Assembly (NCBI GenBank): GCA_938045955.1
Contig: CALIBK010000025.1
Location: 1-46,289, forward strand
DNA length: 46,289 bases
Direction: 5' to 3'
Source of the DNA: an uncultured bacterium
Lineage (GTDB): Bacteria > Desulfobacterota > BSN033 > UBA1163
The position numbers and the translations under genes were made by a program. The notes beneath the pieces were generated by a model, which saw only the letters and a program-made list of their open reading frames with translations, searched no databases and was not told the DNA's origin. Numbering within the stretch: the first letter of the stretch is position 1; each line of letters begins with the position of its first letter. Below, piece by piece: positions 27,274-40,167 of the stretch.

Positions 27274-27368
27274 GGAAGTGGAAAGGTCCTGGTGGGCCTC
27301 CTGGACTTCAAATCCAGTGGCGGGCCGAAGAGGTCTGCGGTGGGTTCGATTCCCATGCACTTCCGCCA
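27274..27368 (+). tRNA. selC: tRNA-Sec (anticodon TCA)
   Basis: 95-nt selC-like sequence GGAAGTGG...CTGGACTTCAAATCCAG...GGTTCGATTCCCATGCACTTCCGCCA with long acceptor/variable arms and encoded CCA. Confidence 0.95.
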
Positions 27369-28489: not shown

Positions 28490-29302
28490 ATGAATCCAAA
28501 ATCAATAATCCTGGTTCTACTCATTCTGGGGGCAATGGTTATCTCAGGATGTGCTGTCAGTAAAGAGACGATGATGGCCTATAATGATGCGAAAGAAACC
28601 TTTCAAAAAGCTACTGATGCTGGGGCAAAAAAGTGTGCCCCCTGTCAATATGCGACCGCAGAAGCTTATTTAGCCCTTGCTGACCATGAAATTAAGCACT
28701 ACTGGAGAGAATTAGAGAATCTTAAAAAACATATTGGCATTGTAAAAGAAAAATCCCTGGAAGCCTTACGACTTACACCTTGTGAAGAGGTTCCAAAACC
28801 TGCTCCACCCCCACCAGCACCTCCGACACCTACACCGGTTCCCCCTTCACCTGCACCTCCACCTCCAGCACCGGCGCCTCCAGCACCAGAACCGGCGCCT
28901 CCACCTCCAGCTCCAGCACCTGCACCTCCAGCTCCAGCACCGGCACCTCCTCCACCTAAGGCGGCTCCGGTTTTCGATCCTGTTTATTTTGATGTGAATA
29001 AAACCAATATTAGCCCAACCGCTGCGAAGGCACTGGATCGGAATGGAGAGATCCTAAAGAAGAACCCTGAAATCAAGGTTGAAATCGGAGGCCATACGGA
29101 TTCAGGTGGACCAGAGAAAGTGAATCAGAAGATATCGGAGAAAAGGGCTCAGAGTGTCAAGAAGTATCTAATGGATAAGTTCGGAATCGAGGAGAATCGA
29201 TTGATCGTAAAGGGGTACGGTTCCACAAGGCCTGTTGCAGACAATAAAACGGAGGAAGGGAGGGCTAAAAATCGGAGGGTGGAACTGAGGCCCCTTCCTT
29301 AA
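28490..29302 (+). CDS. OmpA/Pal-family lipoprotein with Pro/Ala-rich linker
   Basis: Lipobox ISGC; PAPPPPAP linker; C-terminal VEIGGHTDSGGPEKVNQKISEKRAQSVKKYLM..VKGYGSTRPVADN..NRRVEL. Confidence 0.9.
   Translation: MNPKSIILVLLILGAMVISGCAVSKETMMAYNDAKETFQKATDAGAKKCAPCQYATAEAYLALADHEIKHYWRELENLKKHIGIVKEKSLEALRLTPCEEVPKPAPPPPAPPTPTPVPPSPAPPPPAPAPPAPEPAPPPPAPAPAPPAPAPAPPPPKAAPVFDPVYFDVNKTNISPTAAKALDRNGEILKKNPEIKVEIGGHTDSGGPEKVNQKISEKRAQSVKKYLMDKFGIEENRLIVKGYGSTRPVADNKTEEGRAKNRRVELRPLP
28796..28970 (+). repeat. Low-complexity Pro/Ala codon repeat within the OmpA-family gene
   Basis: Repeated CCACCTCCAGCACC/GGCGCCTCCAGCACC units. Confidence 0.8.
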
Positions 29303-39515: not shown

Positions 39516-39629
39516 CTTGTTGATAGCCAGGCGTCCCTGCGGCACACAAAAGGGATTACTACCGTTGCTTCCTTCCGGACCTGGCGGGGTTTGTAATCTT
39601 TTGTTGCGCAGGACCCGACTATCAACAAG
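39516..39629 (-). ncRNA. ffs: Signal recognition particle RNA, small bacterial type (4.5S)
   Basis: Minus strand GGTCCGGAAGGAAGCAACGG signature; 11-bp perfect terminal stem CTTGTTGATAG/CTATCAACAAG. Confidence 0.93.
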
Positions 39630-39672: not shown

Positions 39673-39761
39673 TGGCGGAGAGGGTGGGATTCGAACCCAC
39701 GTCTCCTTTCGGGAGAACCGCTTTTCGAGAGCGGCGCCTTAAGCCTCTCGGCAACCTCTCC
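39673..39761 (-). tRNA. tRNA-Ser (anticodon CGA)
   Basis: GGAGAGGTTGCCGAGAGGCTTAAGGCGCCGCTCTCGAAAAGCGG..GTGGGTTCGAATCCCACCCTCTCCGCCA on minus strand; anticodon loop CTCGAAA. Confidence 0.95.
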
Positions 39762-40066
39762 GGTGAACTTTTAAATTATGATAGTTTCTCTGATAGTTTC
39801 TCCTTTTCCTGGACTATCACAAATTCTTCTGGGTGGTACCGCTTTTTCCGCCAAAGGCGGACCCGCCTCTGGCGGGCGAGAGCGGCGCCTTAAGCCTCTC
39901 GGCAACCTCTCCGGTGAACTTTTAAATTATGATAGTTTCTCTGATAGTTTCTCCTTTTCCTGGACTATCGCAAATTCTTCTGGGTGGTACCGCTTTTTCC
40001 GCCAAAGGCGGACCTGCCTCTGGCGGGCGAGAGCGGCGCCTTAAGCCTCTCGGCAACCTCTCCGGT
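39726..40066 (-). repeat. 151-bp tandem repeat (two full units plus partial third) carrying tRNA-Ser(CGA) 5' halves
   Basis: Unit boundaries 39726, 39877, 40028. Full units differ only at a few positions, for example actatcacaaa/actatcgcaaa and ggacccgcc/ggacctgcc. The third copy ends near CCGGT at 40066. Confidence 0.95.
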
Positions 40067-40075
40067 CAATTAATT

Positions 40076-40167
40076 TGGCGGAGAGAGAGGGATTCGAACC
40101 CTCGATCCCGTTTTAGCAGGATACTCGCTTAGCAGGCGAGCCCCTTCGGCCTCTCGGGCATCTCTCC
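40076..40167 (-). tRNA. tRNA-Ser (anticodon GCT)
   Basis: GGAGAGATGCCCGAGAGGCCGAAGGGGCTCGCCTGCTAAGCGAG..GAGGGTTCGAATCCCTCTCTCTCCGCCA on minus strand; anticodon loop CTGCTAA. Confidence 0.95.

Follow-up and report, generated by a model that had tools for sequence, protein, structure and literature searches.

A tandem array of palindrome-interrupted tRNA-Ser(CGA) 5' parts in an uncultured bacterium and its possible descent from a small GIY-YIG module beside tRNA genes

SegB of the T-even phages is a free-standing GIY-YIG homing endonuclease that cuts within tRNA genes, with the motif RAWTSGAAC (GTTCSAWTY on the other strand), and in phage T6 it drives a tandem amplification of the tRNA-Tyr and segB segment that relies on short homology shared by the tRNA 5' end and the segB 3' end (PMC13096335). 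Two further described systems meet tRNA genes or palindromes, namely the group I introns with homing endonucleases in tRNA anticodon loops (PMC3984707) and the REP/BIME palindromic repeats, together with the insertion sequences that target them (PMC1525189, PMC2817692). In the present study, we analyzed a window of 46,289 nucleotides, the whole stretch of DNA under consideration, in which partial tRNA-Ser(CGA) copies form a tandem array, and compared it with a recurrent chromosomal module built around a small GIY-YIG gene.

Like SegB, this module has a GIY-YIG protein without intron or intein, a gene among tRNA genes and, putatively, amplification of a tRNA-containing segment. In contrast to SegB, the present ORFs are chromosomal, bacterial and about 80-110 aa long, the remnants of the targeted tRNAs bear palindromes, and the clades follow tRNA identity; cleavage would be ascribed to them by analogy. 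Furthermore, the GIY-YIG ORF had no tblastn match among 50,697 phage records at E 1e-5, which argues against a close relationship with SegB, and none in a plasmid collection at the same threshold; a phage or plasmid origin of the ORF was rejected because neither collection gave matches. We speak of analogy with SegB, at the level of the shared GIY-YIG domain, and claim no homology. The only solved structures reached by profile were those of the single-domain UPF0213/YhbQ proteins (PDB 1ywl, 1zg2), alike in size and domain, whereas the present ORFs form target-tRNA-specific groups beside tRNA genes. A literature search, conducted mostly outside subscription papers, brought up only phage SegB and no chromosomal GIY-YIG genes beside tRNA remnants.

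The remaining likenesses are more partial. With group I introns the structure shares the anticodon-loop location and a homing endonuclease, but the insert is of 30 nt, Rfam returned no intron match in the window or in 16 related loci, and a second copy, not splicing, makes the tRNA whole again. As in REP/BIME elements, the insert is a double hairpin, an imperfect palindrome found at several genome sites, with dispersed relatives in the source and related genomes; it would differ from those elements, which are numerous, mostly intergenic and paired with a RAYT transposase, in its few copies per genome (9 palindrome sites in the source genome), and the palindromes in tRNA remnants occupy loops or replace whole arms. 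Finally, elements inserted by integrases likewise use a tRNA gene as target and reconstitute the tRNA, yet no integrase was seen here, and the module, about 350 bp with its GIY-YIG ORF, differs in this from them.

Anatomy of the array in the window

The original prediction had placed a 151-bp repeat, with starts at 39726, 39877 and 40028, between tRNA-Ser(CGA) and tRNA-Ser(GCU), and all of these coordinates hold: units occupy 39726-39876 and 39877-40027, and a third copy of 42 nt lies at 40028-40069 (TRF score 668). Read in the direction of the transcript, on the minus strand, the two units span 39913-40063 and 39762-39912, and they are identical at 149 of 151 positions, with 2 differences. 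Each opens with tRNA-Ser(CGA) nt 1-36 and continues through a 30-nt double palindrome and AAAAGCGG (nt 37-44) to a 77-nt spacer (Table 1), and the two 36-nt 5' ends, located where they had been predicted, match the full tRNA-Ser(CGA) at 100%. The palindrome was correctly assigned to the anticodon loop, while a length of 30 nt fits it better than the 29 nt first given; this insert, CCCGCCAGAGGCGGGTCCGCCTTTGGCGGA, stands exactly between tRNA nt 36 and 37, i.e., between anticodon positions 2 and 3 (CG/A), with no tRNA base lost. After it, as also foreseen, the 3' anticodon strand is restored, and homology to the tRNA stops where the anticodon arm ends, at nt 44-45. ARAGORN and Rfam confirmed both tRNA-Ser genes and the SRP RNA, and with them the predicted minus-strand order from tRNA-Ser(GCU) through the two 151-bp units and tRNA-Ser(CGA) to the SRP RNA; upstream and downstream of these lie genes which we take, from reading the sequence, to be tadA-like and dnaX, respectively.

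Table 1. Features of the array and its immediate neighbors, in transcript order
Feature	Position	Strand	Basis
Intact tRNA-Ser(GCU), on the 5' side of the array as transcribed	40076..40167	-	ARAGORN, Rfam
First tRNA-Ser(CGA) 5' remnant, nt 1-36, 100% identical	40028..40063	-	Comparison with intact gene
30-nt double palindrome with one G-to-A change, between anticodon positions 2 and 3	39998..40027	-	
AAAAGCGG, tRNA nt 37-44: remaining anticodon loop and 3' anticodon strand	39990..39997	-	
77-nt spacer of first unit; tRNA homology ends at spacer base 1; homologue not found	39913..39989	-	
Second tRNA-Ser(CGA) 5' remnant, nt 1-36, 100% identical	39877..39912	-	
30-nt double palindrome CCCGCCAGAGGCGGGTCCGCCTTTGGCGGA in anticodon loop	39847..39876	-	
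AAAAGCGG, tRNA nt 37-44, second unit	39839..39846	-	
77-nt spacer of second unit; homologue not found	39762..39838	-	
Intact tRNA-Ser(CGA), putatively left or restored whole by the module	39673..39761	-	ARAGORN, Rfam
SRP RNA, downstream; neighborhood, outside the module	39522..39620	-	Rfam

The 151-bp unit contains neither a GIY-YIG ORF nor a remnant of one, so that the array could only be an ORF-less derivative of such a module. Searches for the 77-nt spacer gave no homologue in relatives, elsewhere in the genome or in any GIY-YIG module, and the idea of a lost ORF within it was rejected since similarity search found none. Scans of the array revealed no sigma-70-like promoter and no minus-strand terminator-like site; the palindrome itself was discarded as a terminator because, in transcript sense, its hairpin is followed by a run of A, not T. 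Elsewhere in the window, we noted a fluoride riboswitch (RF01734) at 66-132 on the minus strand, a tRNA-Sec gene at 27274-27368 on the plus strand, and a short tandem repeat array with 21/48-bp periods at 28848-28950.

The tRNA-Ser(UGA) locus and its distribution in the family

ARAGORN found 44 tRNA genes in the extracted tRNA-bearing stretches, the window and one further locus (C10) of the source genome (G000), and remnants occur at two of them, tRNA-Ser(CGA) in the window and tRNA-Ser(UGA) at C10; no partial tRNA copies were present near the other 42 (flanks of ~1 kb, less at contig ends). All three remnants in this genome comprise nt 1-36 followed by a palindrome. The order at C10 is serS, a tRNA-Ser(UGA) half, an 89-aa GIY-YIG ORF and the intact tRNA-Ser(UGA), in whose D loop the ORF stops, and the half is made of nt 1-36, a double palindrome of the same type at the same position and AAAACCGC. 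The ORF belongs to PF01541 (Pfam, E 3.7e-14), a second value for the domain in this sister module being 1.1e-11, and the catalytic residues R28, H32 and E64 are invariant in the GIY-YIG alignment (A1), which applies to the sister module and not to the window unit.

A search for the unit and the palindrome in the genome and its relatives, as had been envisaged, recovered the split with its palindrome in three other genera; given this recurrence and the lack of partial copies at the other 42 tRNA genes, the arrangement is not due to chance. The distribution is patchy. Among 17 family genomes the UGA module is present in four, the source and one from each of three other genera (G000, G002, G006 and G011), and the CGA half in three, including two of those other genera (G000, G002 and G006), without an ORF in any of the three; all three genomes with a CGA half fall among the four with a UGA module (p about 0.006). 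In G006, the 5' part of the UGA module, including the ORF, is truncated at the contig start, and in G002 the module is split by a contig break, with the beginning of the ORF readable at one contig end and its final part at the other. Seven aligned Ser remnants share a single break point, and the CGA remnant of G006 extends through the tRNA, its variable and T loops holding more palindromic inserts. Sites that are empty were also seen: serS, whose neighborhood is occupied in the source genome, adjoins an uninterrupted tRNA-Ser(UGA) in two relatives (L038, L044).

Duplicated tRNAs that hold a palindrome in the T loop but have no GIY-YIG gene close by are present in four other genomes (G004, G009, G010 and G014). 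A second palindrome family (GGCGACC...GGAGCGAAGCGAGCGAGCACA) lies in the T loop of duplicated tRNA-Ser at L040 (1270-1450), L185, L183 and L184, where a GIY-YIG ORF is likewise absent from the vicinity. The T loop (GTTCGAATC), the site of this second type in relatives, is resembled by the SegB strand GTTCSAWTY.

The order of tRNA-Ser genes varies as well. Most relatives have tRNA-Ser(CGA), tRNA-Ser(GCU) and SRP RNA, with GCU and CGA reversed in the window; the pair in G002 is CGA and GGA, and in genus g4 GCU stands at the tRNA-Arg(ACG) locus, with GGA adjoining the SRP RNA in the single genome covered (G003). This shuffling would fit recombination between tRNA-Ser genes and does not by itself prove a role for a nuclease. 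At L034 (1739-1945, G002) the body of the tRNA-Ser(CGA) that follows the remnant departs clearly from that of the remnant, as if a foreign tRNA had taken its place.

Small GIY-YIG genes and palindromes beside tRNA genes across phyla

A broken copy plus an intact tRNA, usually with a small GIY-YIG gene, is a design that bacteria of at least four phyla share. When 85,462 species genomes were scanned with the GIY-YIG alignment, 10 loci emerged, each with a full tRNA gene on the same strand within about 150 bp, in hosts from Syntrophaceae and other Deltaproteobacteria, Cyclobacteriaceae, Mangrovibacterium, Echinicola, Stahlbacteria, Omnitrophota and Thermodesulfovibrionales. Within the phylum, a relative of the ORF was detected in 75 of 396 genomes (E 1e-8), and most of the best 29 loci have an adjoining tRNA, most of those in turn a partial copy of that tRNA, which nearly always matches the local tRNA exactly over the aligned blocks. 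Altogether, small GIY-YIG ORFs stand beside intact tRNAs in Desulfobacterota, Nitrospirota, Bacteroidota, Omnitrophota and Stahlbacteria, and remnants of the same tRNA, interrupted by palindromes, often accompany them. The layout takes one of two forms: a broken 5' part followed by the ORF and the intact tRNA (Ser, Asn, Arg, Leu), or the intact tRNA followed by the ORF and a broken 3' part (Ala, Asn, Asp, Leu). The equivalent structure at tRNA-Asn lies within a single-contig genome (G065, L188), and the same anatomy is present in the cultured Mangrovibacterium marinum (L139; DSM 28823), whose module stands at tRNA-Arg(CCU).

We collected 58 distinct small GIY-YIG ORFs, 31 linked to tRNAs, 21 unlinked (two of these near SRP RNA or tmRNA) and 6 at contig edges. 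Thus, a same-strand tRNA lies within 350 bp of 31 of the 52 ORFs with enough flank, versus about 1% expected by chance; three of the 31 had first been found via tRNA-Ser similarity and the others via the GIY-YIG protein. The clades follow tRNA identity (Ala, Ser, Leu, Asp, Asn): in a tree weakly resolved because of its 80 columns, Ala-linked ORFs from two phyla form one clade (100/99), as do the Ser-linked (99/97) and the Leu-linked ones (96/94), and every one of 200 shuffles left the tRNA labels less clustered than they are on this tree. Additionally, a separate small GIY-YIG clade adjoins the SRP RNA (L069 482-889, with two in tandem; L097 1357-1984), which suggests that other stable-RNA genes may be targets, and a small GIY-YIG ORF lies about 270 bp from a tmRNA gene (L134 1382-2253).

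The remnants retain exact tRNA sequence, yet they bear hairpins in the D, anticodon and T arms. Inserts of at least 8 nt between tRNA blocks numbered 39 (D arm 12, anticodon arm 17, T arm 9, variable loop 1), and 24 of the 39 are at least 60% paired; some replace exactly the 17-nt anticodon arm (Ala, Asp). In tRNA-Ala(GGC) remnants (L195, L202, L112, L145) an 11-nt mini-hairpin, GTCGNATCGAC, takes the place of this arm, giving a pseudo-tRNA without an anticodon arm; at L145, in a second phylum, the sequence is similar. The palindrome families are dispersed and mostly away from tRNAs: CCGCCNNNGGCGG occurs at 9 sites in the source genome, several of them double hairpins outside tRNAs, and CCTGCCTNNNNNAGGCAGG at 1 to 12 sites in four other genomes. 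We therefore rejected the palindrome as a private part of a tRNA module, or a dedicated part of the endonuclease module, and the remnants are hotspots for hairpin insertion and not its sole site. By eye, the Mangrovibacterium palindromes CCTGCCTGCGGTAGGCAGG (L217-L226) lie mostly within a host repeat that is itself hairpin-like, and this hairpin-in-hairpin structure of several of them hints at the targeting of loops.

Origin of the array

With restrained confidence, we incline to the view that the array in the window arose by tandem amplification of an ORF-less remnant, and that this remnant stems from a chromosomal GIY-YIG homing module that targets tRNA genes and reconstitutes them. A complete module consists of a small GIY-YIG gene between a palindrome-interrupted, broken tRNA copy and an intact copy of the same tRNA. 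By analogy with SegB, we propose that its endonuclease breaks the tRNA-Ser gene around the anticodon loop and that recombinational repair via short tRNA homology then installs the module; the resident 5' part would stay behind as a remnant, while the 5' half brought by the module would be fused to the resident 3' half, so that a whole tRNA is kept. The remnant would then be free to accept hairpin insertions, and the unit in the window may have been doubled when the 42-bp tRNA repeats recombined unequally, perhaps prompted in trans by cuts from the GIY-YIG gene at tRNA-Ser(UGA). Since an ORF is lacking in the window unit and no GIY-YIG module resembles its spacer, the derivation of this unit from an ORF-bearing one is a step that we infer.

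In favor of this proposal stand the module at tRNA-Ser(UGA) in the same genome and its co-occurrence with the CGA half, the empty sites in relatives, the frequent linkage of small GIY-YIG ORFs to tRNAs, the clades that follow tRNA identity, the exact tRNA sequence kept in hairpin-bearing remnants, and the precedent of SegB. Against it counts that none of the three genomes has an ORF at its Ser-CGA half, that duplicated tRNAs with a palindrome in the T loop arise with no GIY-YIG gene in their vicinity, that the palindromes are dispersed elsewhere as well, and that 21 small GIY-YIG ORFs have no nearby tRNA. Moreover, the restored tRNA should remain a target, so that the module would need a way to avoid cutting itself.

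A neutral tandem duplication is a serious rival, though in our judgment an unlikely one: tRNA-Ser(CGA) would have been doubled, a dispersed palindrome would have landed in the spare copy, and unequal crossing over would have redoubled the unit with no endonuclease involved. It stays serious because the spacer has no homologue and GIY-YIG-free duplications occur in relatives, and the lack of an ORF and the membership of the double palindrome in a dispersed family would also suit it. However, it leaves aside that break point and palindrome are the same as at tRNA-Ser(UGA), where an ORF is present, that the CGA half co-occurs with the UGA module in three of three genomes, and that, among the tRNA genes found in the source genome, the remnants are confined to two tRNA-Ser genes. 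The duplication with palindromic insertion into a tRNA copy in the original prediction was right as far as it went, and what it overlooked is the recurrent GIY-YIG-linked module.

Its other suggestion, a source of stable 5' tRNA-half RNAs, found no support, since the spacer lacks a homologue, the array is patchy in the family, no sigma-70-like promoter was found and the predicted fold of the half differs from that of a tRNA half or arm. A functional RNA in the wider sense, in which the array is transcribed with the neighboring stable RNAs to give 5' tRNA-Ser halves or hairpin-capped decoys, accords with its position between two tRNA genes, upstream of the SRP RNA and on the same strand, and with the full identity of the halves to the tRNA, but the same points and the different ways in which remnants are cut up in other genomes make it improbable. 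Integrase attachment sites typically show tRNA fragments as direct repeats together with a reconstituted tRNA. The halves have this appearance and might be att scars of an integrase-driven element using the anticodon loop, yet the sister module holds only a GIY-YIG ORF between half and tRNA, and a hairpin insertion in one copy of an att core is not expected, so that we regard this origin as equally improbable. Least probable is an assembly artefact of a short-read metagenome bin, for which speak the draft state (177 contigs) and the frequent ending of relatives' contigs at these tRNA loci, and against which stand the two differences between the units and the same anatomy in independent assemblies, including those of the cultured Mangrovibacterium and of the single-contig genome with the tRNA-Asn example.

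Returning to the GIY-YIG module, its recurrent design suggests a little-noticed selfish element that invades and rebuilds tRNA genes. More tentatively still, several phyla may carry minimal selfish elements of this kind, each specific for one tRNA and composed of a tRNA part, a single-domain GIY-YIG protein and a replacement tRNA, which would invade tRNA genes without disabling them, leave palindrome-loaded remnants, spawn ORF-less satellites such as the array in the window, and promote the exchange of tRNA genes between loci. Few targets in any genome are as essential and as well conserved as tRNA genes. If the proposal is true, this would be a very small, self-sufficient mobile element that carries its own repair and has a target common to distant species; odd tRNA fragments and the reshuffling of tRNA genes would find an explanation in it, and the story of phage SegB would extend to bacterial chromosomes. 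The remnants, for their part, record the insertion of hairpins into the loops of structured genes, a process that can now be tested in cultured Mangrovibacterium marinum.
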